Shown here piece after piece: positions 9,029 through 49,392 of a DNA stretch of 64,000 nucleotides; the first letter of the stretch is position 1; every line of letters begins with the position of its first letter. Where the stretch lies: assembly GCA_023105745.1 (NCBI GenBank), contig JALGQZ010000003.1, positions 71,770,696 through 71,834,695 of the forward strand. Direction: 5' to 3'. The stretch comes from Austropuccinia psidii. Its lineage: Eukaryota > Basidiomycota > Pucciniomycetes > Pucciniales > Sphaerophragmiaceae. Made by a program: the position numbers and the translations under genes. The notes under the pieces were generated by a model. That model did not search any database. It was not told where the DNA came from and was given only the letters and a program-made list of their open reading frames with translations.

Positions 9029-9033
9029 CTGGA

Positions 9034-10011
9034 GGACCAACTCTAGCCCATTCTGATCAGCCTATCTCTCATCAGTCTGAACCATCCTTATTGGCCATTA
9101 TGCAGCAGATGACTCAAATTATGGCCAATCTTTAAGCAGCTTTGGTTTCTGAGGCATCAAGACCACCAGCCTTCAAGACTCCATCTATGAAAGCACCAAA
9201 AATCTTTGATGGGACTCAGCCCTTCAAAGTTAGAAGCTTCATTCAGTATTGTAAATTAATTTTTCATAATGATCTGGAAGATTTCTCTCAAGACAGAAAG
9301 AACGTTCTCTATGCCACTTCATTTCTCCTTGACAGGGCTGCAAAATGGATTAGGCTTTACCTTTCCAACTGCACCAATCAAGATCCAAATTACCTTCCAA
9401 ATTCCTGGAACTTATTTGAATCTCAACTCTTCAACTTATTTGGGGACCCAAATGAAGTCAGAAAAGTTGAAGCAGAATTGCATTCTCTAAGAATGAAAGA
9501 AGGTGGCCATGTTTCTTTATACATAGCTGATTTCAGACGTTTGGTTTCAATAATTGGAGATTGGGGTGAAAGGGCTCTTATTCATCATTTCAGGAAGGGA
9601 TTTCCATCCAGGATTTTGGATCAATTGGTCTCCCATCCTTCAAGAATTGACTCTCTTCAATACTTAATGGATGTTACCCTGGAGCTTGATACCTGGTACC
9701 ATGAGAGGAAAAAAGAGAAGAGTCATCATCAAGAGAAGAAGCCTGAAGCCTCAAAGTCAAATTCTTCTCATCCTCAAAATTCTTCAAGCTCAAGTCAAAA
9801 GAAGAAGAAGAATTTTCAGAAGAGGGACAAGGCCAATTCTTCTTTGTTGAAGAAAGACTTCAAGTTAATTAATTCTGAAAAAGGAAGAAGAATCAAGGTG
9901 GGTCTATGTACCTATTGTGGTGGGAAGCATAGTCTTGAGTCCTGTTTCAAAAGGCCTCAAAACAAGCTTACCAAACTGTCAGGCAATTTTCCCAGCCAGG
10001 GAAAATCCTGA
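9034..10011 (+). pseudogene. Gag capsid and nucleocapsid part of element A
   Basis: Continues gag after element D. The segment has a Ty3-type capsid domain (about 9180-9700), then a basic lysine- and serine-rich linker, and a CCHC zinc knuckle with C-x2-C-x4-H-x4-C spacing (about 9907-9948). One TAA lies near 9134, after which the frame is open to the stop at 10009. Gag would coat the element RNA in cytoplasmic particles. The best-preserved part is the capsid, which reads without breaks; the start-codon loss, frameshift, nonsense codon and D insertion make the whole gene inactive. Confidence 0.85.
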
Positions 10012-13000: not shown

Positions 13001-13725
13001 ATCAAGATGATTGGAACACCTGGCTCCCTCCGGCTAAATTTGCCTACAATAACTCTGACCACTATTCAACAAAACAATCACCATTTTTCACTGTTTATGG
13101 AAGAGATCCACATTTTGACTCAGTTCACATTACACAAGATACTCCTGCTGGAAATTTATCAACAAAAATCCAATCAGTACATCAAGATGTCAAGAGAGGA
13201 CTTGAAATTGCCATAAACAGGTTTAAGAGGTATGCAGATAAAGGTAGAGCAAGTCCACCTATTTTCAATCCTGGTGACATGGTATGGCTTTCTTCCAAGA
13301 ACATCAAATCAACTAGACCCATCAAAAAACTGTCTGAAAGATGGCTGGGTCCTTTTCTAATCTTGAAGAAAGTCAGTACTCATGCCTACCACCTCAAGCT
13401 CCCATCTCAATGGAAGTCCATCCACCCAGTCTTCCATATTTCACTCTTAGAACCAGTCAAGCCATCAAAAATCCCAAATCAGCATCAAGAGCCTCCTCCT
13501 CCAATAATTATTGAAGAAGAAGAGGAATGGGAAGTCTCTCAAATACTGGACTTTAAGCTCAAGAGAGGCAAATTGTGGTATCTGGTTGAATGGAAAGGTT
13601 TCAGTCAAGACTCAGAAAGATCCACTTGGGAACCAACTGAAAAACTCAAGAATTGTCTTGAACTGGTCGAGGATGTTTATTTTTTATATCTTGACAAGCC
13701 AGGACCCAATTCTTCAAGAGCTTGA
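10012..13725 (+). pseudogene. Pol of element A: protease, RT, RNase H, integrase, chromodomain
   Basis: Domains run in the Ty3/gypsy order. The protease D-S-G-A-T lies near 10151. The reverse transcriptase has Y-L-D-D near 11338. RNase H spans about 11790-12150. The integrase has an H-H-C-C finger (about 12450-12590) and the catalytic residues D in M-D-F, D in S-D-R and E in T-E-R-V. A C-terminal chromodomain lies at about 13520-13700. Stops interrupt RT and RNase H, including TAG at 11235, TAA at 11484 and others to about 12190. The integrase half from 12247 is open for 492 codons, an uneven pattern of decay. The chromodomain would be expected to target insertion to marked chromatin. Confidence 0.88.
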
Positions 13726-14484
13726 TTTTTATGGTGCTTGGTGGGGAGAGGAATTACCAAAAGTAAGTCCCACTCCTGGTATGCACCCTTAAAGGTATTC
13801 TACACTTTCTTGTTGTAAGCATCACCTTTGCCACTCTATGAGCACTCTGCAATTTTTGAACACAGATCTTTGGCCTGGCTTTCAAAATCAATCCCAAAAA
13901 TTATGGCCATTTTCACTTGGGAAAATGGACCATTCCTTTCCTTAATTGCTTTCCAAGTCAGTCTTTCAGAAAATTTATTTTCTTTCTATGGAACTGGTGG
14001 AAGTGGTAATTACCAAAAGTAAGCTCTTCTCCTGGTGTGCACTTCCCTGAGGGGTCTAAAATCTGTCAAAAAATCATCTAGCATCAAATTCTCCTTGCCA
14101 GGTCCTTGGCCAATTCCAAAATCAATTATCAACCTCTGTGATGAAGATTGGAACCTCCTCAAGATTCATTTCTCTTTTATTTTTCTTTTGTTGATTTCAT
14201 TTTCATTCTTTAATTTTCTTTTTATTTTCTTTTTCAATTTTCTTTACTTACACCAAATCAATTCATGAACGTCCGTCATTCTAAATTTACATCAATTCTG
14301 AAGCCAATGTCAAAAGAAGATTAAGCAAGTCCTGCATCACATGCCAACTTTTCAATATCAGTATCCAATTATTTTTCCCTTAATCACTCCTCTTGAAATC
14401 CCTTTCTCAAATCCTTTCCAGTTTCCCCAACAGGCTTCACCTTGTGTTGGTGCTCAGGAGATTACCATTCCAAGGTGGGGGTAC
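13726..14484 (+). other. 3' noncoding region of element A with a tandem duplication
   Basis: Two related segments begin near 13740 and 13990. Both contain AATTACCAAAAGTAAG followed by a C- and T-rich stretch and a TGCAC motif. The same pair occurs in B near 34090 and 33790. GTAAG in each copy resembles a splice donor. The polypurine tract lies at 14472-14481. Confidence 0.6.
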
Positions 14485-16028
14485 TGTCACAACCATGGCA
14501 ATTACCCTCTTTGACTCCATATGTCATATCAGTGCCATATCAATCTTATGGCAATTTGGCCATATCCATAATCACTGGCCAACTGGGCCCTCTCATCGTT
14601 TCTGGCCTTTTATGGTCATTTCACTCCTGGGGGCCAACCTGGTGCTTCACTATCATCAGGCCGTTCCAGGCCATTCTCTAATTTTGATCACTTTAACGTA
14701 TTTTTTAGTCAACAGGAAAAATACAGCCCAAAAGGCTGTATTTGGATTTTTAAGATTTAAATACAGTTTTGTGCATTTTTGCGCACTTTGCACATTTTGT
14801 GCATTTTTGCTGTATTCAGCTGTATATGCCATTTTCCCATTTATTATGCAAAATATGTCCAAAAGGCATTATCAGGCCCTCTGGGGATTAATTTCCAGTA
14901 TTTTAAATTTTGTACACTTTTGTGCATTTTGTGCATTTTTGCGCACTTTGCACAAATACAGTTTTAAAGCTGTATAAGTTGTATTTGGCCAATACACCGA
15001 GAAACACCTTGTCATCTTTGAAGTCACCCAAAACCCAATTTTCACTCTCATCCTCCTGTCTTCACTAACAAAGACCTTTGGATATTTTCACCCTTCAGAA
15101 ACTCAAATTGTCATAAATAGTGTTATACACCATTCTTCATCTTTTTTCACCAAAATTCCAATGGTGTCAATATCAGAGGGGTAATTCAACATCCTGTAAG
15201 TCACCAAAGTGTCATGTCATCCAGATGACCCATCAAGGCTCAAGTGAACATGTAATTTCTCAAATACCAATGACACCATCAGGAATTCATTGGTTATTCT
15301 CATTTCAAGTATTCCCTCCAAGGGAATATTGTCAATTCATTCCCAAGGGGTATTCAAGAAACAGTTCCAATCAAGTTTTCAAGTGTCAATGCTCCATCAA
15401 TACAGCTTGGCAACCACATTCATTTCAATACAGTCTGGATTCATCAAGACCTGTATTTCAAACATACATCATGGGAAAATCATTTGACACAGTTCATTTC
15501 CCAATCTGGCAAGGTATACACTTCATCATGCTGTCAATACAGCTTCAAGGATTCAATACAGACCAGCTGTCAGCCTGCAGGAGTCAATCTCTCAGCTTTT
15601 CACATATACCAGCCTCCTTTGACCCTAGGGGGCTTTCCCCCAGTTGATTAATATATTTGGATTTTCTTTCATCTTTATTTATCTTACCATTTTTGTTAAG
15701 TGAATACTGATATTATCAAGTCAGTCATTTAGCACCTTTTCTCTTTTCTTTCTTTGCCTGTCAATGGATATTTGGTGGTCATATCCTTACTCATTCCATT
15801 GTTCATCTTGGCAGGTTGAAAAAGTGATTAAGGACTTACTTGGTTGGCTCCTTGGCCATTTGGCTTCTCATTTTTCTTATTGCATCTCATTTTTGTACTT
15901 TCATTCTTCTTAGAGAAATTCAATTCTTTATTTTTATTTTCTTCATTCTTTTGGAGTCTTTCAAGTGAGCTCCCTGATTTCTGAGTGCCAGGCCACTTTT
16001 GTTTTTCTTTCCAAGAGCCCCTGTGACA
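14485..16028 (+). repeat. 3' LTR of element A, divergent from its 5' LTR
   Basis: Starts TGTCACAACC and ends CCCCTGTGACA. Only the terminal regions clearly match the 5' LTR. The body lacks the GGCC-dense block. It carries two copies of a GTGCATTTTGTGCAT-type segment (about 14765-14815 and 14912-14960). Confidence 0.8.
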
Positions 16029-31601: not shown

Positions 31602-33307
31602 TGTCACAGGGGCTCTTATGGAAGCAAGAGGGCCTGGCACTCAGGAATCAAGAACTCACTTGGAGGGCTCCAAAGATGATAAGAAATACTACGGAATATG
31701 TTTCTTAAACAGTGATAAGAGATAGGACAAATATGCCAGAGATAACAAAGAAAATAATAATAAGAATGGAGCCAGAGGCCAAAGATAAAAGGAAGCCAAA
31801 GGCCAAGAAGCCAACCAAGTGAATCCCCAATTCACTGTTTCAACCTGCCAGAAAGAACAATGGAATTAGTAAAGGATATGACCACCAATATCCACTGACA
31901 GGCAAGGAAGGAAAAGAGAAAAGGGTGCTAATGACTGACTTAAGGTTATCAGTATTAACTTTAATAATGTAAAAGAAAATAAGGATAAAAATAAATCCAA
32001 TATAATAATTAACTGGGGAAAAAGTCCCCAGGTGCTGAAAGGTGGCCAGTATATGTGAAAAACTGAAAGATTGATCCTGAAGGTGGATCACCGGCTGTAT
32101 TGTCCAAATCGGGCCAATACAGTTCTGGCCATCTTGAAATTGAACTGTGTGATTGAATTCCCACAGTGCAATATGAATTGGCCCAGTTGGGCCAAGTACA
32201 TACAGGTTGATTGATTGCCGCCTGTATGAACCAATTGAGTTGTCCAAGGAGTATTGAAATACTTGATGCCTTGACAACTGATTGAAATGATGGAATACCT
32301 CTGAGAATGAACCTTGGAAGAATCTTGAATGAGAGTACCAACTCAACTCCTGCATAGCCAGGTGGTTGGAGTCCTTGAATGGTCTTCTGCTTGCCACCAT
32401 GGATTACCAAACTGATGAGTCCAAAAGTCCTCCTTCAAAATGGGCGTTGGATTTTGGTGCCTTGAGTTGAGAAGGTGGAATTGAGTCCTGAAAACGTCAC
32501 CATTGAATTGCTGAGCAAAAATGGTGCATAATGGTATATAACACCATATATGCACCACTCCTGCAACCTTGAATACAGGGTGCATGGAGGAATGGAAGAA
32601 TTTTCCTTAAGTTGAGGGAAAAGCTTGATGAACTGATTTGGTGGCCCCTGGTGGTTGCCAGAGGCCATGACAGAGATGTTTGGTCCATAGTGGTCCATGT
32701 CCAAAAATGAGTCCTACATGATTTATGGCCAAAAAGGTGTCCAAGGCGTTTTTGGCCAATTTTGGGTCCAAGGGAAGTATGGCCAATTTTGGCTCAGGTG
32801 GGCCCAGATGTGATTTGGGACCCACCTGGCCTTGGGGGTTAGGTGGTTGCCCCCTTTGGCCCCTTTTGGCCTCATTGGATTAGGCCAAAAGGGGCCTAAA
32901 AGGCCTACGGACTGCGGACCGCGGCCCACGGACCATAGGGGGCCTAGATGGCCCAAAAAGGCCATTTAGGCCCAAGACCCCCTAATGAAAAGGGGGGGCC
33001 TGGATCCAATGGTGGTGGCTAGGGGGCCTGGAGTCCCCTAGAAGACAAAAAGGACCCCCCAGGCCCAAAATCAATGATGAAGGCCTGGGGGTTGGTGAGG
33101 TGTGAATTGGCCAAGAGGGCCAATGACAGCAGGATATGGCCTGAGGCCATAAATGGCCACTGGGATGGGCTGTGGCGTAAGAGCCATTGAACACCCAAAG
33201 GGGGCCAATGGGCCATAAATGATATGACGTGGCCAATTGGCCCCAATTTGGCTCCAGGTTGATTGCTGCAACCATCAAACAGGAGGGTCAAACTCGTGGT
33301 TGTGACA
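31602..33307 (-). repeat. 3' LTR of element B
   Basis: 1706 bp, reading leftward from TGTCACAACC to CCCCTGTGACA. It is 63 bp longer than the 5' LTR because of small segments near 33000 and 33135 that are absent there. It contains the GGCC-dense block (32700-33260) and the TATA hairpin (about 32520-32558). Long open frames inside are not genes. Confidence 0.9.
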
Positions 33308-34109
33308 GTACCCCCCCTACCTTGAATGGTGAGCTCCTGAGCACCAAGATAAGGTGGAAGCCTGTTGAGGCTATTGAGACGGATTTGACATAGGGATTCC
33401 AGAGGCATTGAATCTTGAAAAGAAAAATTGAACTGATAAACTTGTTGGCATATGAATTGAGGTTGACTTGGTCTTCTCTTGACATTTGGCTTTGACAATG
33501 TTGAAAACGTGATTTGACGTGAAGATTTGGCATTAAAGAGTTATAAGAAAAAAACTTTAAGAAAATATGAAGAATAAAAAAGAAAAGAAACAGATATAAA
33601 GAAAGAAAAGAAAAATAAAAGAGAAAATGAATTTCAAGGAGGAATCCAATCTTCATCACGGATTACAGCAGTTGATTTTTGAAAGTGGCCAAGGAATTGG
33701 ATAAAGGAATTTGATGCCAGGTGCTCACAGAGTGGCCAAGGTGATGTTTTGACAGATTGTAGACCCCTCAGGGAAGTGCACACCAGGAGAAGAACTTACT
33801 TTTGCAAGTTACCAATCCCGCCAGTGCCATAAATAATGAGAATCTTTATAAATGAATGTATTGAAGGAATAATATCTTGGGGAGGAAAATAAGAAAAGAA
33901 TGGTCCATTTTCCCAAGTGAAAATGGCCATAAATTTGGAATTTGGATGTTGAAAGCCGGGCCAAGAAGTCTGTGTCCAAATTGAAAAATGCTCACAGAGT
34001 GACCAACGTGATGCTTACAACAATGAAGAGTAGAAATACCCCTGAAGGTGCATACCAGGAGTGGGACTTACTTTTGGTAATTCCTCTCCCCACCAAGCAC
34101 CATAAAAAT
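33308..34109 (-). other. 3' noncoding region of element B
   Basis: Contains the same tandem duplication as A (near 33780-33830 and 34040-34100), each copy with a CTTACTTTTG complement that reads as a donor-like GTAAG on the coding strand. Confidence 0.55.
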
Positions 34110-37100
34110 TCAAGCCTTTGAAGAACTGGGTCCTGGCTTGTTGGGATATAACGAATGAAAATCTTTGACAAGTTCAGGGCAATTATTGAGGTTTTCAGCT
34201 GGTTCCCATGTGGATCTTTCTGAATCTTGGCTGAAGCCTTTCCATTCTACCAGATACCATAATTTTCTTCTCTTGAGCTTTGAGTCCAGTACTTGGGAGA
34301 CTTCCCATTCCTCTTCTTCTTCAATCATGATTGGAGGAAGAGGCTCTTGGTGCCAATTTGGGATTGTTGAGGTCTTGACTGGTTCCAAGAGTGAGATATG
34401 GAAGACTGGGTGGATGGATTTCCATTGGATTGGAAGCTTGAGGTGGTAAGCATGAGTACTGACTTTCTTTAAGATTGGAAAAGGACCCAACCATCTTTCA
34501 GACAGTTTCTTGGTGGGTCTAGTTGATTTGATGTTCTTGGAAGAAAGCCATACCATGTCACCAGGATTGAAAACAGGTGGACTTGCTCTACTTTTATCTG
34601 CATACCTCTTAAACCGGTTTATGGCGAATTCAAGTTCTCTCTTGACATCTCGCTGTACTGATTGAATTTTTGTTGATAACTTTCCAGCAGGAGTATCTTG
34701 AGTGATGTGAACTGAATCAAATTGTGGATCTCTTCCATAAACAGTGAAAAACGGGGATTGCTTGGTTGAAGAGTGATCAGAATTATTGTAGGCAAATTCA
34801 GCCAGAGGGAGCCAGGTGTTCCAATCATCTTGATGATAGCTGACATACATCCGAAGATACTGTTCTAGTATCTGATTTACCCTCTCTGTCTGTCCATCAG
34901 TTTCTGGGTGGTAAGCAGTTGACAAGTCTCTTGAAATCTTGAGCTGCTGACAAAGGTTGGTCCAGAAGGAAGAAACAAAAAGGGAACCTCTGTCACTGAC
35001 AATGCTTGGGGGAAGGCCATGCTTTGAAAAGATATTCTTCATGAATAAATGGGCCAAATCCAATGAAGTTATTGAAGACATTGTTGGAATAAAAACCGCC
35101 ATTTTTGAGAATCTGTCCACTATGACAAGGATTGAGTCAAATGAATTGGACAGGGGCAGTTGAGTGGTGAAATCCATTGAAAGACAAATTCAAGGACCAT
35201 TTGGAATTGGAAGAGGTTTGAGGAGTCCAAACTTCTTATGGTGAATATTCTTGTTTCTTGAACACTGTTGACAGGATGATACATAATCCTTGATGAATTG
35301 AGTCATGCCGGACCAGTGGAAATCCCGCTTGACAAGTTTGAGAGTCTTCTCTTGGCCAGGGTGTCCAGCTAGAGGAGAATCATGCCGCTTTTGAAGAATG
35401 CTGAGTTGGATTGTGGGTTCATTTGGGACCACCACCTGATCTTTGAAAAGGAGAAGTTGAGAAGAAGAATCAAGAGAATAATCCTGAATGGATTTACCTT
35501 TACCCAATTCTTGAAGGATACTTCTGTACTGAGGATCTTGCCATAATTTCTTCTGAATTGAGTCAATCAAGTTTGAAAAGGAATCCACCTTGACTGCAAA
35601 ATACTTTGACGGTTGAGCTTAATCTTGCTTAATGAGTTGTTTAAAATTCATTGGATTCTTGCTGATGAAATCCTCCCCCCTCTCCGGATAGATGTTGTCC
35701 CAACGTGATAAAGCATCTGGAAGAGTTGCTAGGCGGCCAGGGCGGTAAGTGATTGGAAAATGAAATTCAGATAAGAGTTCAGCCCAGCGGGCTTGACGGT
35801 GAGTGAATACTTTTGAGGACATGAAGTATTGAAGAGAGCTGTGATTGGTGAGAACTTCAAAAGGAGAGGACAGAGAAAGAAGAAAAGCCCTCCAATGCTT
35901 GAGAGCCCAGACTATGCCAAGGAGTTCCTTGTCATGAATCTCATAGTTGAGTTCTGCTGGGATAAGCTTGCGGCTGTCAAATGCAATGGGATGTTTTCCT
36001 GAGTCAGTACAGCACCCAAGGCATAATTGGATGCATCGGTCTCTACAATGGTGGGTAGAGAAGGATTGGAGCAGTGGTGAAGGCCTCTTTGAGTTGATGA
36101 AACTGGCTAAGAGCTTCCTCATTGAGGGGGAAACAGGAATCTTTCTTGAGGAAACTGGTGAGTGAACTGATCTTCTTTGAATAATTCTTGATGAAACGGC
36201 GGTAGAAGTTGGCAAAGCCAAGGAAGGATTGAAGAGCCTTGAGATTTCTTGGAGGCAGCCAGTTGAGGATCTGCTGGACTTTTGCTTGGTCCATCTTGAG
36301 GCCTTCAGAAGAAACAACATAACCAAGATATTCTACACTAGAGGCATGAAAAAGGCATTTTGAAGCCTTTGCAAAAAGGTTATTGGCTCTGAGCCTGGAA
36401 AGAACAGTGCACACATGAGTGACATGTTCTTCCTCAGATTTGGAAAAAACCAAAATGTCATCCAAATAAACCACAACAAAAACATCAAGAAGATCTTGAA
36501 AGATATCATTGACAAGATTCTGAAAAGAGGCAGGAGCATTGGTGAGCCCAAATGGCATAACCAAGTACTCAAAACTGCCATATTTAGTTCTGAAACATGT
36601 CAAATGTTCATCACCCTCCTTGATTCTGAGCAGGTTATATGCACCACACAGATCAATCTTGGAGAAGATAGAAGAACCATTAAAGACATTGAGAAGCTGA
36701 TTCATAGGAGGAACAGGATCCTTGTTCTTCCTAGTAAGAGCATTGAGTTTGCGGTAATCAACACACAAACGGAGGCCACCATTGTTCTTTTTGACAAAGA
36801 GGACAGGTGCTCCTGTTGAAGAGGAGCTTGGCCGGATGAAACCCTTCTCTACATTCTCTGAAATGTAGGCCCTGAGTGTATCTGACTCTTGTTTGGATAA
36901 AGAGTAGATCACCCCAACTGGAGGTAGAGACCCCCCCAGCGAGATATGATGATCACAGGCATGGTGAGGAGGAAGTCTTCCTGCTTTCACCTTGGAAAAC
37001 ACATCCAAATATTGGTGATAGACAGAAGGGACAACCTTCATCACGTTTTCTACTTCTTCTGGCTCTTCCTCTTCATCCCACAACTCCTCCAGATAGTCAT

Positions 37101-37795
37101 GGTAAGATGAAGGAGGGAGGTCCATATTCCCAAAGAAGAGACGAAGTGAAGATACGGAATTATCTTCTCCAACATCTTGAATCTCTTTGAAGACTTCATC
37201 TCCAGGTCATTGTAATGACTGATGGGAATTAAGGGAAGGAATATGGACAGAAGACAGATATGATGGTGTTCTAGAATTACCACCCAGAGCTGCACATGAT
37301 TTGGCAGAAGAAAAGTCATTACGGGAAGAATTAGAAGGATCAGAATAGTCCAAATGATTAGGATTAAAGGTGATCAGCCCTTGCCTCCAATCAATAGAAG
37401 GATTAAAATGATTGAGAAAGTCAAAGCCCAATATGAGGTCTTCTCCCTTGGGAGTATCAATGACTAAAAAGTACAATTCAAAGCTTGGGAAGGTAGGGAG
37501 CTCAACCATATATTTAGTATGGTGAGTAACAAATAATGAAGGGGACTCAGAGGATTCCAAAATGATAAGAGGAATCTTCTCTGGGAGTTCTGACGTAGTC
37601 AATGAGTACTTGTGAACAAACTGCTTTGCAATAAATGAGTGTGTAGCACCAGAATCAATGTGAATACTGTAAAAGACATCAGAAAGAGAAGAGAAAAAAA
37701 AAATTTAAGAGAATTTTTGACACCAATATTCAGGATGCACAATTGTGCTCTGGAAGGAAAACTGTGAAGACCATTGAACACAACATGATCTTCAC
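34110..37795 (-). pseudogene. Pol of element B: protease, RT, RNase H, integrase, chromodomain
   Basis: Ordered domains are a protease D-S-G-A-T (near 37650), a reverse transcriptase with Y-L-D-D (near 36465), RNase H (35650-36030), an integrase H-H-C-C finger (35200-35420), the D-D-E core (34850-35180) and a chromodomain (34120-34310). Breaks include a frame change between protease and RT near 37200, a 16-bp loss near 36065 relative to A, and a TGG-to-TGA type stop near 35187. RT and integrase are otherwise open over long stretches. The protein would reverse-transcribe and integrate the element; as it stands it cannot be made whole. Confidence 0.9.
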
Positions 37796-38462
37796 TCAGG
37801 ATTTTCCCTGGCTGGGAAAACTGCCTGGCGGTTGGGTAAGCTTATTTTGAGGCCTTTTGACACAGGACTCATGACTATGCTTCCCACCACAATAGGTACA
37901 CAAACCCTCTTTGATTCTTCTCTCTTTTTCAGAACCCTTCAGCTTGAAGTCCTTATTCAACAAGGAAGAATGGGGCTTGTCCCGCTTTTGAGAATGAAAT
38001 TTCTTCTTATGCCTTGAGCTTGAAGAAACTTGATGATGAGAAGAGTGAGACTTCAAGCTTCAGGCTTCTTCTCTTGATGATGATGCTTCTCCTTTTGCCT
38101 CTCATGGTACCTGGTATCAAGTTGCAGCCTGACGTCCATTAAGTCTTGAAGAGAATCAATATTTGAAGGATGGGAGGCCAAACCCTTCCTGAAATGATGA
38201 ATAAGAGCCCTTTCACCCCACTTCCCAATTCTTGAAACCAAACTCCTGAAATTGGCAATATATAAAGCAACATGCCCACCTTCTTTCATCCTAAGGCCAT
38301 CCAAGTCTGCTTCAGCTTTTCTAACTTCATTTGGGTCTCCAAATAAAGTGAACAATTGGGATTCAAAACAGTGGCCAGGAATTGAGAAGGTAACTTGAGT
38401 CTTGATTATTGAGATTGGAAAGATAAGGCTCAATCCATTTTGCAGCCCTGCCAACTAAGAAT
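37796..38462 (-). pseudogene. Gag C-terminal part of element B
   Basis: Capsid C-terminal half followed by a basic linker and a C-x2-C-x4-H-x4-C zinc knuckle (about 37860-37905). A frame change lies near 38055, where A and B differ by a small insertion or deletion. Upstream it meets element C at the GAAGT duplication and continues the frame of 48763-49392. Confidence 0.85.
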
Positions 38463-38467
38463 GAAGT

Positions 38468-40391
38468 TGTAAGATGTGACTATGAAACTGATGATAATAT
38501 TACTATTAATCAACAGTACTATGTCTGTTCTTATGAAATATAATAATAAAGTATTATTATAACCACAATTAAATAATTAAAAAATTATTTCTTTCACGTG
38601 TTAAGCACTACTAGTGATTTTAACAGTGAGCAAGTAATTGTCTACTAGAATCAATTACAAGAAGAATTTAATAATAAAAACTTCTTTATTAAAATAATAA
38701 AATTATTTTAATATATATAATTATCTTTTGCAAGAATAATTATAAAGATAATTCTTGAAGAAAACTATTACTAGAGAAAAACTTTAAGAATTAAGAATAA
38801 ATGACTCACTAATACTCCAAAGAACTTATTGATAGATAAGAGTAGAGAAATTTGAAGTAGAATTGTGGATTTAAAGGATCAAAAGGATTTATAACAGTAT
38901 TACAACAATATATAGTTGGATTCTAGGATTTCACGTCTTTCTGGATGATTTGGAAAGATTTAAAACACTTAAGAATAGTTTTAACTAATACTTACTTGTT
39001 GGTAATAATGATTTAATAAATTGATAAGATGATGATGCGGAAAAAACAGCAAGAATAGGCTTCTTTTAAGTCAACAACAGCTCACAGAGGCGTGCCATGG
39101 AGCAAACTAAAAAACAAGTGAGTGAGAAAACAATAAACCCTTTTGTATTAATGATTGCATCATCTGTTGTCACGTAAGATTATCATAATTACTTAATTGA
39201 TGCTTTTACGTGACTACCAACCCCAATATGGTTAAGAATAAAAGGAGTAACATCTGTAAATCTTCTTTTATTCTAAAATAATCATTGACTTCTCAAAGCT
39301 ATCAATGTTATTGCCAATTTCATCACAGGTTGTAATTACTGTGAATTTTTGAAGATTCAGTGTTTCACGTAGAATGGTCAAAAATGGACTGTAAGTAAAA
39401 CTTTGAATTTTACTAGTAAAACCATAATTCTTTTTGGTTATACCATAGATAATACAGTTCTTCATTGGTCCTGAAAGTTTCAGGAAGATTCATTAAGAAT
39501 TGTATTTTTAATGAATTTTTGAAGTTTTTACCTCATTTCTACGTAGAATTGCAAATAGCAGTATTTTGCTGGTTGCTATGAGGTAAATCAATGAATATGG
39601 ATCCCAAAAGGGTTTAATTACTCTTTTAGGGTCTAGTAATGGAAATTCATCAAGAATTGACGTGGTTACAGGAGCCTAAGTAGCTTATTACCTCCTTGGC
39701 ACGTCAAAATAGCAGGTTATTTGCTATTTTTCTTATGATTACAGTAGGTGTAACTTGGTAACCAAGTTCCCAAAGAGTTTTAGCTTACCAATTGGGCCAA
39801 GATGAGCCATGGATCCATGCTCTGGAGCTATCCACGCCTCTGAGGCCTCAGAAGTTGGGTACCCTGGCTCTCTTTGATGTCTTTTGTCCCCCTTGCCTAA
39901 TTTTTACGTCAAAATAGTAATTTAAGCTTAAAGTGAGATATCCACTATGGGTGTACCAAAAGTCCATGTAAGAATACCATAATATTAAGTGCTCAAAACA
40001 TGCATAACACTATTCTTAGTGTATATGTAACATGGGATTTCTCACTTTCCCATTATTTTGGCTAAAAATCAAGAAAAACAAAAGTTTTCACGGATCGTTT
40101 ATGTGGTATTAATGATGTGGTATTGAAGTATTTTCCATTTTACCACCTCAAATACTTAAATTGAGCTTATTCACTCTATGGAGCTACCCTAGGTGAATAT
40201 TTGTGTAGAATCCAAATCTGGTCTTAAATCCATGGATTTACTTACTCAATAAAAAGTTATTCATCTTTTCTGAAATTGAAAATGATGAATTTTGGATATA
40301 TGCATGACTTATGAGTTTTGCATAATTCAAAATTTCTTTTTAAGATAATTGTGGCCTATTTGGGTATGTAAAATATACCTCAAGGCTCACA
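38468..40391 (-). repeat. 3' LTR of element C
   Basis: 1924 bp; on the coding strand it begins TGTGAGCC and ends CTTACA. It includes an inverted CACGTAA/TTACGTG pair about 30 bp apart (39177-39210). The short open frame at 39268-39465, repeated in the other LTR, is not considered a gene. Confidence 0.95.
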
Positions 40392-40530: not shown

Positions 40531-43500
40531 TCAGGCTTGTGGCCTTCTTTCATGTCTAAATCTTCTTAAAAGTTTATCTGAGTCAGGTATTTCTGATTCC
40601 GCCATCCATTCATCTTCATGTACTGGATTTCTATATCTGACAAGATATTCTCTTTGATTTTTACCCCTAAGTCTCCTTTCTTTAATGACTTTCTTTATCA
40701 TTTTGTCTTCATTCTGTTCCACAGGTGGTACAGTTAAAGGAGTTGGGTTTCTTAAAGGAAACAATTCTTTATCAGCTGGTTGATAAGGTTTTATCAAGCT
40801 GACTGGAAATGTGGGGTGTTTATTTTCCAATTCACCACTCAATTCCACTTGAACTGCATTGGTTCCATGTAAAGCAACAATAACAAAAGGTCCTACATAA
40901 GAATCTTTAAGTTTCTTTGGGCCTTTGATATTATTAAAATTCAAGGTTGAAACTAAAACTAAGTCCCCTACTTTGAAGTCTGGTACTTTATGACTCTTGT
41001 CCCACTTCTGTTTTGCATAATAAAAAGCATCATCCATACTCTGTTTTGCATGGTGTTTTACTTTATCTAGCATTAATTTGAAGCTGGAAGCTGTAGGATG
41101 AATGTCAATCAAGTCTTTCCTCAGTGTGTCTGCTGGGAGTCTTGGATTCCATCCTTTTTCTAACATAGCAGGAGTTTGTCCTGTGGAAGAGTGGACTGAT
41201 GTCTTGTATGCCAATTCTAATGCAGGTATCAGAGTGCACCAGTCATGGGTAAAGCCATCTGAGTCTTTGAATTATAATCCATAAGCACAAAATCTCCTGA
41301 TCATGTCTTCTAAAGTTTGAATCATCCTCTCTGCTAGCCCATCTGTTTGAGGGTGCTATGCTGTAGAGAATGATAACTTAGTCCCAAACAATCTATGAAG
41401 ATTGGTCCAAAGTGCAGATGTGAATTTGGGATCTCTGTCACTTATGATATTCTTAAATAACCCTGTATGAGAAATAACTCTACTCCATAAAAGAAGAGCT
41501 GTATCCATAGCAGTGTCATCTTCATGACATGGTAAGAATATGGGAGTTTTGCTATATCTGTCTACAATGACTAAACAAGAATTATAGCTTTTGTCACCAC
41601 TTGGAGGAAGTGCTGTGACCCAATCCATGTGAACAACTTCCCAAGGGGATTTTGGTTCTTGAATATGGATCATCAATCCAAATTTCTTGCCTGTACTCCT
41701 GTTTGCTTTTTGGCATCTATCACAGGTATGGCAATATTCAATGGTTTCTTTTCTCCAAGATGGCCACCATGCACAGTTCTTCACCTTTTCAAGTGTTCTG
41801 TCTTCTGATAGGTGTCCAGAGTAAATGCTATCATGGCATTCATGAAGAATGGTATTGATAAGCAATCTACTACACAGTGTCATCACACAAGAATGTTTTG
41901 TTCTATGGTAAATAATCCCATCAAACAAGTGAAATCTTCCCTCAGAATAGGAATTTTTCCAAACTTCATCTAGTGCATTAACCAAAGATGTATCTTTGCA
42001 GTCTTTATTCAATAAAGAAGTCAAGATATGGCAATTCTTATCTTGTTTATAAGACTCTCTGACCTCTTCAAAGAATTCAGTCCCAATATCAGTTATGTTA
42101 ATTCCTTCAATTGGAATCTGTGGTTCAGCTTCCAAAGGTACATAAGCTGGGTTATCAGGAGTGTTGGCTAAAGCCCATCTACTAAGTCCATCAGCATTCT
42201 TGTGAATGTTTCCTGCTTTATGAACTATAGTCATGTTTCCTCTATATTCTTGAATGGCTATTTGCCATCTCAACATATGTCTGTTGGGAGTTTTCATGTT
42301 AAGAAGTGATTTTACGGCATTACAGTCAGTTATCACTTCAAAAACACTGCCATCAAGATAATAGTGTAGTTTCTCAAGTGCCCATACCAAACAGAAGCAC
42401 TCCATTTGGCTTGCACCATATCTGGATTCTGTTGGTTTTATTTGTCTTGAGATATAACAAACTGGTCCTTCTGTAGGTTTGTCATCAATAATCTGGACTT
42501 GATGTAGGGCTGCCCCTAGTCCATCTCCACATGCATCAATGTACAATTTAAAAGGAATATTCCAGTCAGGCATGAGGAGTAAAGGTGCTTCTGTAAGGGC
42601 TTTCTTTATCTTCTCATAAGCTTTAATTCTTTCCTGTGTCATCTCAAATACAGTCTGTTGATCACAGATTCTATAGAGTGACTTGGCTAGAATTGCAAAA
42701 TCTTTCAAGTGTTGCCTATAGTAACTAGAAAATCCAAGAAAAGACATCATTTCTTTTTTATTCTGGGGTATTGGCTTAAGTAACACTGCTGCTACTTTAT
42801 TCTTGTCAATACCCAAGCTCAAACCAGAAACAACATGTCCTAATGCTTTGAGTTCTTCAAAACCAAAATTGAATTTCTTAAGTGAAATTTTCATGTTCAC
42901 TTCTGCAACTTTATGAAGTACTCTTGCAAGTCTTTCAAGGTGCAAAGACCATGAGTCAGAACATATAATAATATCATCAATATAAATGATAAGCCATCCT
43001 TCAGATAATTATGTGGGGAAGATGGTATTCATCATTCTTTGATAATGAGATGGAGCATTTTTAATGCCAAATGGCATTCTAAGATACTCAAAAATGCCAC
43101 AGTGGGTGATAATTCTAAGTAATTTCTTAGCTTTAGGCGTCAAAACATTTTGATGAAAGCCTTTCAATGCATCCATTGATGTTATATACTTGGCTTTAGA
43201 CAATTGAGTCAAGGTTTCTTGAATTCTAGGGATTGGATACCTATCTGGAACTGTGTAGGTATTCAAAGCTCTAAAATCTCCAACCATTCTTGACTTATCA
43301 TTATGCCATGCAATAATAACAGGTGTTGTCACTTCAACTTCCTCATTATGGCCTACTTTCCTTAGCACACCAAGTTGGATCAACTCTTGGATATGTTTTT
43401 CCAAGGCCTCTCTAGCTCTGGGACTGGCTGGATAAGCTGGTCTTCTAAGTACTGGAGGATATGGTCTGTCAATATTAAGAGTAATATCAACTTCATGTCC

Positions 43501-46233
43501 TCTTATAGCACCTAATGGTTCATTATCAGAGGCAAATGCATTTTTATATGTGTATAACACATTAATAAGCTCATTCCTCATCTTTGGTGACAATGATTGA
43601 TTAATTTGTGCTTCAACAAGTTGATTAGTCACAAATTCATCTTTGTAAGTATCCTTGACAGAAGATACTACAGATATCTGTTTTGGCATATTGGAGAAAG
43701 CAAATTTTTGTCTCTTGTTATCTCCAATTGTGAAATATCTGTCTTTATGGTTATTTATATCAATACCATAAATATTTAAGTAATCATTTCCAAGAATGAT
43801 GTGCTGAGATGTGCAATTATCCATTACTACAATCTCAGTTTTCATTCTTACACTTCCTGCTGGATGTGGGAATACAATATTAGTGTCCAATATGCCCAAG
43901 GGGTACATATTGTTACTGGCACTACTGAATTGTACACCTTCTATTGGTAATAGATGGTTTTTCCATTCAGGAAGTATAATTTGGAGATAATCTTTGCCAA
44001 CACAAGTGCAAAATGCCCCTGTATCCAAATTTACTTTGGCTTCAATATCACTCATCAGAACTGATGTGATACAGGATGCTCCAGCAGTATAACCCTTTCC
44101 TCTAGCAGGTTTTGTTTTACACATTCTGGCATCTTGGATATTGATCAGGTTGCAGCAATCTTCACTGTACTGTGGCAAGTGGGTATGGACTTCTGTGACC
44201 TCAAAGAAAGCTGAAATGTTTTCAATGGGATAGTCCTCCACTGGTGTATCTTCAGAGATTGCAAAATCTTGATCAGACTCCTCTTTCTCTTCAGTACACT
44301 GAATTTCTTCAATGACTTGAACTTCATTGATTTTTGTCTTCTTAGGACAAGTGTTGGCTAAATGTGAAGTACTTCCACATTTATGACACTTCAAGACAGG
44401 TCTTTCTGGTCTTCTTTCATCTCTAGGAATCTTTGAGACTATTTTGGACTCTATTGGGTTTTTAATCCAAGTCTTACCAATTCTTGTCCTGGTAATGATA
44501 TCTTCCATAGCATTAATGTTGTCCTCTGTTGAACAAGGTTCCACACATCTGCTTTTGATAGCATGTTCCAGTTCTCCTCCACACTTTCTTAATACTTTCA
44601 TATTAATCATAGTGTCAGACATATCTGGGTGTAAAGCAGATAATCTGTCTTTTTGTTTGAAGAACCAAGTAAGTGGTTTGTCTTTTTCTGAATTAAAAAT
44701 GGCACTTTCAAAAGCATTCTCCATTTTAAATCTCCAACAATTATTGGCCCATTTGGTAATCACTTCAGATTTCCACCAAGACCAGTCATGTTTACCATGA
44801 TCAATCCTCATTTTGTAATACCATTTCTTTGCAGTTTTGGTAAACAAACAGTGTAGTTTTCCCACTATGATTTCATCAGGTATATTAAAGTCTTCTTGCA
44901 ACATATCAATAGTCCTGATGAATTCAATATGGTTGTATTCTCCTTCACCAGAGAATGTTGGCCATTCTTCTATTTTGGGAATATCTCTTGCAGAGTAGGC
45001 ATTTTCTCCTAAGAATGGAGTCAAACTTTCTTTAACAGAAAGTTTTTCTTCAGTCAAAGGTGTGGAATGTCTTGGCATATGTGGTTCATGAGTCTTATGA
45101 ATTTTCTCCACACTTGCAATTATATCATTCTTCAATTTCTGCCTCTCACTGTCACTTTTTGCTAAATGTATAGCAAATTTATTGGTGTTCTTAACTATTT
45201 GTAAGACATGGTCTTCAAGAGTTTTAAGTCTATCATTTACTTTAAAAATGGAAGGATCCTCTGTGTCATTATTTTGACATTGGGTCTCAATTCTTTCACA
45301 AGCATTGCTAATTGACTCAAGGGTGACAGTTGTCAATTGATGCCAATCAGAATGTTGCTTGTCATTTTTCTTTAAATCATTGATGTCTAATGTAATTTGC
45401 TTTAACTTTGACTCAAGTTTGCCAATTTCTACACTAATACTTCTATGTACATCATTTATTTGCGTGGAAAAGTCCTGTTCATCCTTTCCTGCTCCTTGGC
45501 TGTGAATTCCATAAGAGTTCTGGCCATATTGAAGACACTGTCCACGGCTGAAGGCTCCAATTTGGGGATCCTGTACCCTTGTGGGTAAGGTCTGTGCCAA
45601 TTGGCTTTGCCTTTGCCCTTGCCTTGATGGTTCTTGGGACCTCTCTGTTTCTTTTGAGGTCCTTTGGGCTTGTCCTTGGGCGCTTCTGGAGCTGGTTTGG
45701 AGCTGGTAGATGCCACTGGTGCCTCTGTCTCCAAAGCTGGAGTCATTTCCAACTCTTTCTTCTGGTCTATGGATAGAAGACTTTGGTTCTTCAACCAATT
45801 CTTTATCTTTTTGACCTTGTCTTTGCAAGACAGGGGGCTCCATCCTCCTAAGAGTTCTATGGTCTTCTCCTGACCCAGAAAGCTCTTGATGTGTAAGTAG
45901 GAGTTCATGGCCCCCTGCCAAAGGCTTGGGCAGATTTCCCACTCCTCTTCTTTGGCTGCTCTGAACCAGTTTTTGTACTGGCATTGATATATTTCTATTG
46001 CTGCCACCTGAAAGTGGTTCAGCCCTGGAAATATTACCATAAATCAGTTCAGGCTCAGAATTTACGTCAAAATCTGTTGGTACAGACCTTGGGGAATGGG
46101 GGGCAACTCTGGCATCCTCCAGATGTGTCTTTCTTGTGGAAGATTTGGCACTTCTGGATTTGGTCTTGCCTCTTCCTTGTCCACATCCATCTGGTTGGAC
46201 TGAATAGTTGCTTCCATTTCTGGTATGCACCAT
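40531..46233 (-). pseudogene. Gag-Pol polyprotein of element C with three nonsense codons
   Basis: A single frame runs from ATG at 46233 to 40531, about 1900 codons with no frameshift. In order it holds a disordered N-terminal region, a capsid (about 44500-45000), a CCHC knuckle (about 44342-44390), a protease D-T-G (about 44020), an RT with Y-I-D-D (about 42975), RNase H (42200-42550), and an integrase H-H-C-C finger (41690-41850). The integrase core follows, with D in M-D-W, D in S-D-R-D-P and E in L-A-E-R-M. A chromodomain closes the protein (40560-40700). In-frame stops are TAA at 43009-43011, TAG at 41356-41358 and TAA at 41272-41274. All other motifs are intact. The first part overlaps a second reading frame (45456-46217). 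Confidence 0.92.
45456..46217 (-). CDS. Overprinted, spliced accessory protein of element C (232 aa)
   Basis: Reads in the +1 frame relative to gag. From ATG 46217 the frame is open to 46088, a GT-AG intron (46025-46087, 63 nt, TTTCCAG acceptor) follows, and exon 46024-45456 ends with a stop, giving 232 residues. In this frame the intron contains two stops, so splicing is required. The N-terminal half has tryptophan-rich, globular-looking sequence (W-E-I-C-P-S-L-W). The C-terminal half has a basic lysine-, glycine- and proline-rich linker and a helical tail. The gag frame over the same bases is glutamine-, arginine- and serine-rich, low-complexity sequence. From memory, similar hypothetical proteins are annotated in Austropuccinia. 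A further intron (46220-46284, 65 nt) could join an upstream open segment (46285-46444) and would remove the gag-pol start at 46233. The function is unknown. Confidence 0.72.
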
Positions 46234-46284
46234 TTTCACGTCAATTTAAAGATAAAAGGTGAAAATATAAGATAAAATACACAC

Positions 46285-46833
46285 CTTTTGGTGGTAATTT
46301 AGCTTTTTCTGAGTTGAATAAGGTGCCTCTTTTAGCAATCTGCACCTCAATACTGTCTTCAGATTCTGCTTCTGAAGATTCTGGACTATTGATGTATCTT
46401 TTACTGAGTCTGTTACCAGCTGCACAGTATTTGATTAAAGACACTTAAAGAGAAAAAATATGATAAAAGAAATTATTTTTGTGTTTTAAGATATTTTTAA
46501 AAGATTTTTTATGAATTTTATTATTTTTTAATATTAAAAAAAATTATTCTTTTTAAAGAAAAAAAAAATTAAAATTTAAGATTTTGAATGAAAATTAATT
46601 CAGAGTAACTCAAAGAATAATTTTATAAGTTTTTGGATGTGAAAAAGCCACGTGTAAAAACAGTATAAAATTAAACCAAATTCCTCAATGAAAAAGATTT
46701 TAAGACAATTTCAAAAATAAAAATTATTTTAACTTTAAAATGAAAGAAAAAATTATTAAATTAATATATTTTAGAGCTTAAAAATATATTAATTAAGGGT
46801 ACAAGGTTCAAAAAACACGGCCAGGCCCCCAAA
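46285..46833 (-). other. Leader of element C with a possible upstream exon
   Basis: 46285-46444 is open, acidic and serine-rich but has no ATG. A pyrimidine-rich TTTCTCTTTAAG directly before it could be a splice acceptor. A donor at 46284 would join it in phase to 46219. The rest is AT-rich. TTTGGGGGCCTGG directly after the 5' LTR (46821-46833) is a possible primer-binding site. Confidence 0.45.
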
Positions 46834-48757
46834 TGTAAGATGTGACTATGAAACTGATGATAATATTACTATTAATCAACAGTACTATGTCTGTTCTTAT
46901 GAAATATAATAATAAAGTATTATTATAACCACAATTAAATAATTAAAAAATTATTTCTTTCACGTGTTAAGCACTACTAGTGATTTTAACAGTGAGCAAG
47001 TAATTGTCTACTAGAATCAATTACAAGAAGAATTTAATAATAAAAACTTCTTTATTAAAATAATAAAATTATTTTAATATATATAATTATCTTTTGCAAG
47101 AATAATTATAAAGATAATTCTTGAAGAAAACTATTACTAGAGAAAAACTTTAAGAATTAAGAATAAATGACTCACTAATACTCCAAAGAACTTATTGATA
47201 GATAAGAGTAGAGAAATTTGAAGTAGAATTGTGGATTTAAAGGATCAAAAGGATTTATAACAGTATTACAACAATATATAGTTGGATTCTAGGATTTCAC
47301 GTCTTTCTGGATGATTTGGAAAGATTTAAAACACTTAAGAATAGTTTTAACTAATACTTACTTGTTGGTAATAATGATTTAATAAATTGATAAGATGATG
47401 ATGCGGAAAAAACAGCAAGAATAGGCTTCTTTTAAGTCAACAACAGCTCACAGAGGCGTGCCATGGAGCAAACTAAAAAACAAGTGAGTGAGAAAACAAT
47501 AAACCCTTTTGTATTAATGATTGCATCATCTGTTGTCACGTAAGATTATCATAATTACTTAATTGATGCTTTTACGTGACTACCAACCCCAATATGGTTA
47601 AGAATAAAAGGAGTAACATCTGTAAATCTTCTTTTATTCTAAAATAATCATTGACTTCTCAAAGTTATCAATGTTATTGCCAATTTCATCACAGGTTGTA
47701 ATTACTGTGAATTTTTGAAGATTCAGTGTTTCACGTAGAATGGTCAAAAATGGACTGTAAGTAAAACTTTGAATTTTACTAGTAAAACCATAATTCTTTT
47801 TGGTTATACCATAGATAATACAGTTCTTCATTGGTCCTGAAAGTTTCAGGAAGATTCATTAAGAATTGTATTTTTAATGAATTTTTGAAGTTTTTACCTC
47901 ATTTCTACGTAGAATTGCAAATAGCAGTATTTTGCTGGTTGCTATGAGGTAAATCAATGAATATGGATCCCAAAAGGGTTTAATTACTCTTTTAGGGTCT
48001 AGTAATGGAAATTAATCAAGAATTGACGTGGTTACAGGAGCCTAAGTAGCTTATTACCTCCTTGGCACGTCAAAATAGCAGGTTATTTGCTATTTTTCTT
48101 ATGATTACAGTAGGTGTAACTTGGTAACCAAGTTCCCAAAGAGTTTTAGCTTACCAATTGGGCCAAGATGAGCCATGGATCCATGCTCTGGAGCTATCCA
48201 CGCCTCTGAGGCCTCAGAAGTTGGGTACCCTGGCTCTCTTTGATGTCTTTTGTCCCCCTTGCCTAATTTTTACGTCAAAATAGTAATTTAAGCTTAAAGT
48301 GAGATATCCACTATGGGTGTACCAAAAGTCCATGTAAGAATACCATAATATTAAGTGCTCAAAACATGCATAACACTATTCTTAGTGTATATGTAACATG
48401 GGATTTCTCACTTTCCCATTATTTTGGCTAAAAATCAAGAAAAACAAAAGTTTTCACGGATCGTTTATGTGGTATTAATGATGTGGTATTGAAGTATTTT
48501 CCATTTTACCACCTCAAATACTTAAATTGAGCTTATTCACTCTATGGAGCTACCCTAGGTGAATATTTGTGTAGAATCCAAATCTGGTCTTAAATCCATG
48601 GATTTACTTACTCAATAAAAAGTTATTCATCTTTTCTGAAATTGAAAATGATGAATTTTGGATATATGCATGACTTATGAGTTTTGCATAATTCAAAATT
48701 TCTTTTTAAGATAATTGTGGCCTATTTGGGTATGTAAAATATACCTCAAGGCTCACA
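46834..48757 (-). repeat. 5' LTR of element C
   Basis: 1924 bp, the near-identical partner of 38468-40391. Transcription of the element would start here and run leftward. Confidence 0.95.
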
Positions 48758-48762
48758 GAAGT

Positions 48763-49392
48763 GGCATAAAGAACCTTCTTTCTGTCTTGAGAGAAGTTTG
48801 CCGGATCATTATGAAAAATGAGTTGACAAGATTGAATGAAGCTTCTGACTTTGAAGGGCTGAGTCCCATCAAAGCATTCTGGTGCCTTCATAGAGGGAGT
48901 CTTGAAGGCTGGTGGTGTTGATGACTCAGAGGAAGAAGCTGCTTGAAGATTGGCCATAATTTGAGTCATCTGTTGCATGATGGCCAATAAAGATGGTTCA
49001 GACTGATGAGAGACAGGCTGATCAGACTGGGCTGGAGTTGGTCCTCTGGTGCCTTCAGATGTGCCCACAGGAGCATGAGCAGCCTCAGTGCCATTAGACT
49101 CTTCCTCTTCCACAGAATTCTCCTCCTCCTCTTCATCATCTTCACCTTGAACCTTGGGACTGGTTCTTGAAAGTCCTTGGAATCCGCCAACCACTCCTGA
49201 TAATGAGATTGATCTCCTTGGCCCTCTTCCTTCCTTCCTGGATGGTGCTGCTCCTTCCAGAGTGTGTCCTCTGTCCAATCTGGCCCTCAGTTGAGAAACT
49301 GCTGGGGTACCGTCAAGAGGAACCCTTGGAGTTGGAGTCAGAACAGCTTGAGATCTGGTCTGTCTTGCAGGAGATGAATGTTCAACTGGCAT
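48763..49392 (-). pseudogene. Gag N-terminal part of element B
   Basis: Starts at ATG 49392. It encodes the proline- and serine-rich N-terminus, an acidic glutamate stretch, a Q-Q-M-T-Q-I-M helix and the beginning of the capsid, then is cut by element C at the GAAGT duplication. It has no internal stop. It is the intact counterpart of the broken N-terminus in A. Confidence 0.88.

Follow-up and report, generated by a model that had tools for sequence, protein, structure and literature searches.

An accessory frame laid across gag and probably expressed by splicing in a Ty3-type retrotransposon of the rust fungus Austropuccinia psidii

The window analysed here is a stretch of 64,000 nucleotides (nt) of Austropuccinia psidii DNA (contig JALGQZ010000003.1, positions 71,770,696 to 71,834,695, GCA_023105745.1), taken from a genome assembly of 1.015 Gb in 84 contigs. 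On its minus strand it carries element C, a retrotransposon with long terminal repeats (LTRs) in which a second frame lies before and across gag and appears to be joined into one coding sequence by the removal of introns (Table 1). A preliminary description of the locus had proposed that alternative splicing with two introns yields an accessory protein overprinted with gag, and this proposal is now backed both by 13 genomic copies lacking one or both introns and by selection on the joined frame. It is likely, from the comparisons presented below, that splicing lets element C make two proteins from a single promoter.

Its LTRs and its domains mark element C as a young LTR retrotransposon of the Ty3 type. 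It is flanked by the target-site duplication ACTTC (48758-48762 and 38463-38467). Profile searches of the gag-pol frame recovered RVT_1 above the cut-off and a zinc knuckle below it. The order of the pol domains is RVT_1, RT_RNaseH and Integrase_H2C2, each above the cut-off; the integrase core (rve) falls just under it (31.6 vs 32.6), SH3_Tf2-1 exceeds it and the Chromo domain match is weak (20.7 bits, cut-off 25.1). The RNase H, integrase and Tf2-type SH3 domains lie in open reading frames (ORFs) downstream of the gag-pol frame. The assignment to the Ty3 type follows from the reverse transcriptase, RNase H, integrase zinc-binding and Tf2-type SH3 domains in pol. The primer-binding site was assigned by its position, where comparable sequence follows the LTR end in all 11 copies inspected at this point. 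Because pol contains in-frame stops at 43011, 41358 and 41274, the window copy is not an intact element, and the analysis was built on many copies of the family rather than on this one. These stops are present despite the near identity of the two LTRs. A first look at the DNA level gave 1,894 candidate members of the family in the genome, 40 of which were scored.

Table 1. Features of element C in the window, with the genomic copies that lack each short intron
Feature	Position or copies	Strand	Remarks
5' LTR	46834..48757	minus	TG...CA, 1924 nt; 99.9% identity to 38468-40391
Exon 1	47362..47463	minus	non-coding, in 5' LTR; inferred to hold the transcription start
Intron 0 (putative)	46444..47361	minus	918 nt; donor AACAA|GTAAGT, acceptor ...AG|TG; spans primer-binding-site position
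ATG-free leader of unspliced RNA	46234..47361	minus	1128 nt, A+T-rich
Primer-binding-site position	46816..46833	minus	adjoins inner end of 5' LTR; assigned by position
Accessory exon 2	46285..46443	minus	no ATG (AUG = exon 1 A + TG)
Intron 2	46220..46284	minus	65 nt, GT...AG; holds gag ATG
gag-pol frame	43009..46233	minus	ATG 46233 to first in-frame stop of window copy
Accessory exon 3	46088..46219	minus	overlaps gag
Intron 1	46025..46087	minus	63 nt, GT...AG; coding in gag frame only
Accessory exon 4	45456..46024	minus	overlaps gag; ends TAA
3' LTR	38468..40391	minus	pair with 5' LTR
Intron 1 lost at exact borders	L021-L025, L041-L046, L048		12 copies
Intron 2 lost	L022-L025, L041, L045, L046, L049		8 copies (7 exact; L024 one base more)

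The accessory frame is organised around two short introns. An ATG at 46217 begins an open frame shifted by +1 from that of the gag ATG. Intron 1 is phase-neutral and contains two stops in the +1 frame, so that its removal yields 232 amino acids (aa) ending at 45456. Once intron 2 is taken out, an open segment upstream of it continues into the +1 frame, the two meeting in the codon G|AA just before 46217. The start codon, the 63-nt and 65-nt GT-AG segments and the two stops had been placed correctly in the preliminary description, all on the minus strand. A diverged accessory protein was used as query in a protein-level search of the genome, and the top five places in the ranking encode the +1 product uninterrupted. 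When aligned to the window, L021 lacks exactly intron 1 and L022, L023, L024 and L025 lack both introns, one additional base being missing at the intron 2 junction of L024. A pattern spanning the 63-nt junction gave 13 matches, of which 12 are true, and one spanning the 65-nt junction gave five, with no match in either backward control. L047, a chance resemblance to the 63-nt junction in which the intron is still present, was removed from the count; L049, newly found with the 65-nt pattern, keeps the 63-nt intron.

In total 13 processed copies were recovered, seven without both introns, five without intron 1 only and one without intron 2 only. Inspection of the raw sequence confirmed 12 of the 13, while L043 escaped the pattern and rests on alignment and tree. 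The 5' flanks are all different in the eight processed copies with a visible LTR start (8/8), and the processed copies sit on separate tree branches, scattered among intron-bearing copies. As read from the topology of this tree, intron 1 was lost independently at least five times and probably about eight. Both junction and protein searches favoured intronless copies, so these numbers give no estimate of a splicing rate. At the level of genomic sequence the processed copies show that introns 1 and 2 are truly removed from some element RNA, and reverse transcription of spliced RNAs is the simplest account of the processed copies. The missing segments could also be read as DNA deletions between short AG repeats, the +1 frame being merely a long open frame, since two to three bases of identity (AG) occur at both ends of each segment; this is hardly credible in view of the identical boundaries in 13 copies, the occurrence of all three combinations of loss and the strong purifying selection on exactly the joined frame.

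This selection was measured as changes on the internal branches of trees, in sample 1 (48 rows) and in sample 2 (20 further copies), the sampling of copies following tool rankings. As the choice of copies by protein similarity might introduce bias, a frame-blind check was run on L070 and on those sample 1 rows that DNA searches or junction patterns had found; except for L070 it shares its rows with sample 1. L048 (about 26% diverged) and L046 (match split over 2.6 kb) were left out. In exon 4 the ratio of nonsynonymous to synonymous change (omega) of the accessory frame is 0.11 in sample 1 (80 synonymous changes, 28 other), 0.08 when processed copies are removed from it (42 and 11), 0.11 in sample 2 (47 and 16) and 0.11 in the frame-blind check (37 and 14). 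No accessory stop occurs on internal branches in any of these exon 4 counts, for 6.7 expected in sample 1. Exon 3 gives 0.08 in sample 1 and 0.13 in the frame-blind check. Exon 2, read in the frame joined by intron 2 removal, gives 0.25 (17 synonymous to 14 nonsynonymous changes, sample 1), 0.14 (31 to 14, sample 2) and 0.26 (7 to 6, frame-blind check). The same pattern is visible in simple site counts. In the overlap the accessory third position coincides with the gag first position. Variable sites whose variant occurs in two or more of 21 rows (the window and L021-L040) are distributed 40/6/7 over gag positions 1/2/3 in exon 4, and 32/29/54 in the downstream stretch that codes for gag only. 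By these measures the +1 frame and its upstream exon evolve together as a single conserved protein. Comparison of synonymous and nonsynonymous change in the two frames shows the +1 frame to be the more conserved, and free accumulation of stops in it beside an open gag was not seen.

The gag frame shows a different kind of constraint. In the exon 4 stretch its omega reaches 3.4, 2.2 and 2.8, so that its residues seem unconstrained, although these values are inflated because only accessory-synonymous sites are free to change. Among the accessory-synonymous changes on internal branches, none creates a gag stop (0/80, 0/47 and 0/37; 9.7, 6.0 and 4.3 expected). In the window, exon 4 has no stop in the gag frame, compared with 7.1 expected when accessory codons are shuffled synonymously, an outcome obtained in none of 5000 shuffles. 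Over exons 3 and 4 of the window sequence, accessory codons able to make a gag stop never end in T (0/43), compared with 32/93 of the others (Fisher p = 1.3e-6). Inside intron 1 gag omega is 0.18 in sample 1 and 0.26 in sample 2 (2 synonymous to 1 nonsynonymous change in the small frame-blind set), and downstream of the overlap it is 0.44-0.54. Of the aligned rows, 57 still have both introns, the window among them; both frames are open in 41 of these, the accessory frame only in five, gag only in four and neither in seven; the count was restricted to these rows because a two-base alignment artefact scored intronless rows as broken. Translation of gag must begin upstream of the accessory stop, since beyond it more than 100 codons of the gag frame pass without an ATG. 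On this evidence the DNA that encodes the accessory protein is also kept open for gag, and within intron 1 gag is under constraint in its own frame.

An alternative in which the accessory frame is the N-terminal half of Gag, joined to gag-pol by a frameshift or an intron and with only a passive gag reading across the overlap, would explain why that reading tolerates almost any residue change, and some gene models of A. psidii MF-1 (P0054, P0092) do splice the accessory frame to gag. The avoidance of gag stops far beyond chance and the gag-frame constraint inside intron 1, needless for such a fusion, make it very unlikely; no classical slippery site was seen near the accessory stop, by eye only. 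The preliminary description treated gag as the younger, overprinted frame, and codon usage leans weakly the other way: likeness to other element coding sequence is 0.12 for the gag frame in the overlap and -0.06 for the accessory frame, while exon 2, which lies clear of the overlap, scores the same as the reference (0.23 vs 0.23).

The upstream end of the accessory frame suggests a third intron. The 5' border of exon 2 is AG|TG (46445-46442), behind a T-rich tract that drifts in sequence. The acceptor AG is present in all 48 rows with data in one alignment; in another, of 31 copies (excluding L043, L046, L048 and L049), AG is found in 29 and TG in 30. At position 47361 the LTR has a donor-like sequence whose GT is kept in 29 of the 31 copies and whose preceding A is kept in all 31; in L048, an old copy, no GT aligns at this point. 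Exon 1 joined to exon 2 reads A|TG TCT TTA..., giving MSLIKYCAAG... We infer an intron between 47361 and 46444, whose removal would take the primer-binding site with it and create the accessory AUG by joining A to TG. A second AG (46421-46420, in TGTGCAG) was rejected as acceptor of exon 2, conservation beginning further upstream, at the AG|TG of 46444. In L043 (C7:61611100-61616500) LTR similarity stops exactly at the putative donor (position 1683), where unrelated sequence abuts GTAAGT, possibly a chance truncation or a splicing-related chimera.

The accessory product would then be longer than the 232 aa from ATG 46217 put forward at first. It probably has about 286 aa, gaining an exon at its N terminus and an AUG that splicing from the LTR puts together. 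The predicted 286-aa protein (32.8 kDa, isoelectric point 9.3) probably comes from four exons. Its C-terminal half is strongly basic, with a net charge of up to +9 in 30 residues. The accessory ORF has no match to a Pfam domain and no match in the PDB with E below 0.6, and a scan of the 286-aa protein for export-signal patterns found none. The gene lies before and over gag, unlike retroviral env, which follows pol; no long hydrophobic stretch was seen in the protein by eye, no signal-peptide tool being used.

Gene models for A. psidii MF-1, from the work of others, bear on this product. The +1 ORF, searched against proteins as the preliminary description had suggested, matches 914; among the 120 of these that were listed, all are from A. 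psidii MF-1, and relatives in other rusts may exist among the remainder. The junction of exons 3 and 4, written as a loose pattern, is matched by 56 of the 120. With the first 60 residues of the 286-aa product as query, four MF-1 proteins were found (P0121-P0124). P0121-P0123 begin at (S/T)LIKYC, that is at the start of exon 2, are marked partial and cross intron 2; P0122 and P0123 also cross intron 1, and P0124 repeats part of the sequence. These models use the same introns as element C, and a large group of annotated hypothetical MF-1 proteins, among the matches listed, would be explained as products of the element C family. They also bear on a variant of the scheme in which the protein is the 232-aa form after all, started at the internal ATG 46217 of a partly spliced RNA, the upstream exon being a remnant or read from a non-AUG start. 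That ATG is intact in 21 of 21 aligned rows, and a length of 232 aa is found in 24 of the 120 listed models. The variant is nevertheless unlikely, because exon 2 evolves as protein and is in the accessory frame only once intron 2 is removed, and because P0121-P0123 read through it. Nine of the 120 models (P0008, P0044, P0069, P0079, P0094, P0100, P0102, P0106 and P0120) have an MVHTRNG-like start, in the gag frame, and pass into the accessory frame via other predicted introns; they are probably prediction artefacts, and could be further splice forms.

The leader of the unspliced RNA contains no ATG, for 12.3 expected, and none of 2000 dinucleotide shuffles was free of ATG. The LTR upstream of the donor at 47361 contains 25, close to the 26 expected, the last at 47464. 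In other copies with a readable leader, 8 of 17 are ATG-free and 9 of 17 carry one to three ATGs. With transcription starting between 47464 and 47361, the gag ATG would therefore provide the first AUG on the unspliced RNA. As exon 2 lies inside this leader, it can have no ATG of its own, which would block gag. An AUG assembled by splicing would resolve this conflict between exon 2 and gag, allowing one leader to serve two genes, gag and the accessory gene, each read from the first AUG.

In the expression model that we propose for element C, the unspliced RNA, whose first AUG past the donor is that of gag, would make Gag-Pol and serve as genome. The fully spliced RNA, with the gag AUG and the primer site gone, would be a pure mRNA for the 286-aa basic accessory protein; it would yield neither Gag nor cDNA because the gag ATG lies in intron 2 and the primer-binding site in intron 0. 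The idea, already present in the preliminary description, that splicing switches one RNA between gag-pol and an accessory factor holds for the 65-nt intron, which contains the gag ATG, and would extend to the putative LTR intron. It does not hold for the 63-nt intron, whose removal leaves gag in frame.

Several observations weigh against parts of this model. A genome search found no copy with the intron 0 junction; such an absence would be explained by loss of the primer-binding site, introns 1 and 2 lying downstream of it. The single match to that junction, L070, proved to be a mutated acceptor. The LTR contains other donor-like sites ending in A (48611, 48411 and 47175), and the GTAAGT at 48611, also preceded by A, lies in a fully conserved LTR window. 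The window of 47361 ranks 87th in conservation among 1905 overlapping LTR windows and is first only within 47600-46834. The real donor may therefore be another one, giving the same AUG, and 47361 is the least certain part of the model. The conserved GTAAGT at 48611 may be an alternative donor or some other conserved signal. As regards selection, constraint on exon 3 is unclear in sample 2 (8 synonymous to 17 nonsynonymous changes, omega 0.61, p = 0.17) and one exon 2 stop falls on an internal branch of the same sample. On terminal branches the constraint on exon 4 is weaker (omega 0.51, 0.39 and 0.67), as expected for dead copies, and there 4/96, 2/82 and 3/46 accessory-synonymous changes do create gag stops. 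Finally, the AlphaFold model of the accessory protein has a mean pLDDT of only 55, too low for a fold search, and the domain searches of the protein gave no match.

Multiply spliced accessory genes are a mark of complex retroviruses, and several known systems share single traits with element C. HIV-1 Rev is made from fully spliced RNA and gag-pol from unspliced RNA, and the Rev AUG is not known to be assembled across the LTR. The element C protein resembles Rev in being predicted from fully spliced RNA only and in its basic composition, and differs in belonging to another host kingdom; we know of no sequence relation between the two. The overprinted accessory genes of deltaretroviruses lie in the pX region and are not known over gag. 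Ogre elements, whose hosts are plants, carry introns, and their extra ORFs are not known to overlap gag. Within the literature searched, the closest Ty3 case is Cer1 of Caenorhabditis elegans. The CERV protein of Cer1 is required for export of the unspliced genomic RNA of this Ty3-type element and is translated from a spliced mRNA of five exons with one exon in a separate frame; the export role of HIV-1 Rev is summarised in the same paper (PMC10309623). Element C shares with it the Ty3 type, a lineage-specific accessory protein, a multi-exon spliced mRNA and an exon outside the gag frame. The element C protein differs in lying wholly before and across gag in the other frame.

To our knowledge, foamy viruses have no accessory frame of this kind over gag. 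They resemble element C in having a donor inside the LTR: their major splice donor lies in the R region and, unlike in element C, splicing serves other genes such as pol (PMC3694450). With such a donor their spliced mRNAs would lose the primer-binding site. The barley Copia element BARE1 has a similarly short GT-AG intron, facultative and 104 nt long, which gives a subgenomic mRNA; its product is Gag itself, without a second-frame protein (PMC3735527). Ogre elements are likewise Ty3-type, with long LTRs and extra ORFs of unknown function (PMC6431247), and deltaretroviruses likewise have overprinted accessory proteins in alternative frames (PMC3744397). Among the papers listed in searches of open-licence full texts, none describes the present arrangement in its title or in the opening of its abstract.

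By analogy with CERV and Rev, the accessory protein might act in the nucleus on the unspliced RNA, through export or protection from splicing, and its role as a nuclear RNA regulator is proposed tentatively. A structural or packaging role as an RNA-binding partner of Gag, or an anti-silencing role, is about as likely, short of probable: the basic C-terminal half would fit any RNA-binding function, while obligatory full splicing fits an early regulator better. It is conceivable, if somewhat doubtful, that a fungal element has independently built a lentivirus-like two-phase expression, with a regulator made from fully spliced RNA and an AUG formed across the LTR intron; the regulator frame would then be written over a gag domain that need only stay open. 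The arrangement makes it testable whether fungal elements need a Rev-like factor. The very large number of copies opens it to study by comparative genomics alone, and the dual coding is unusually clean, one frame being conserved in its residues and the other mainly in its openness. It also suggests a simple logic by which one leader may serve two genes, the second AUG existing only after splicing.

Element C is itself nested in another LTR element (flanks 48758-49046 and 33297-38467, with the 5-bp target duplication), and a related element at 9032-14495 aligns unbroken to both flanks without the insert. Elsewhere in the genome, runs of two to three element copies spaced by about 8.45-8.47 kb occur on contig C1 near 29623274, 31348743 and 48099138. 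This spacing looks like a tandem arrangement of the internal region plus one LTR, the LTRs being shared between neighbouring copies.

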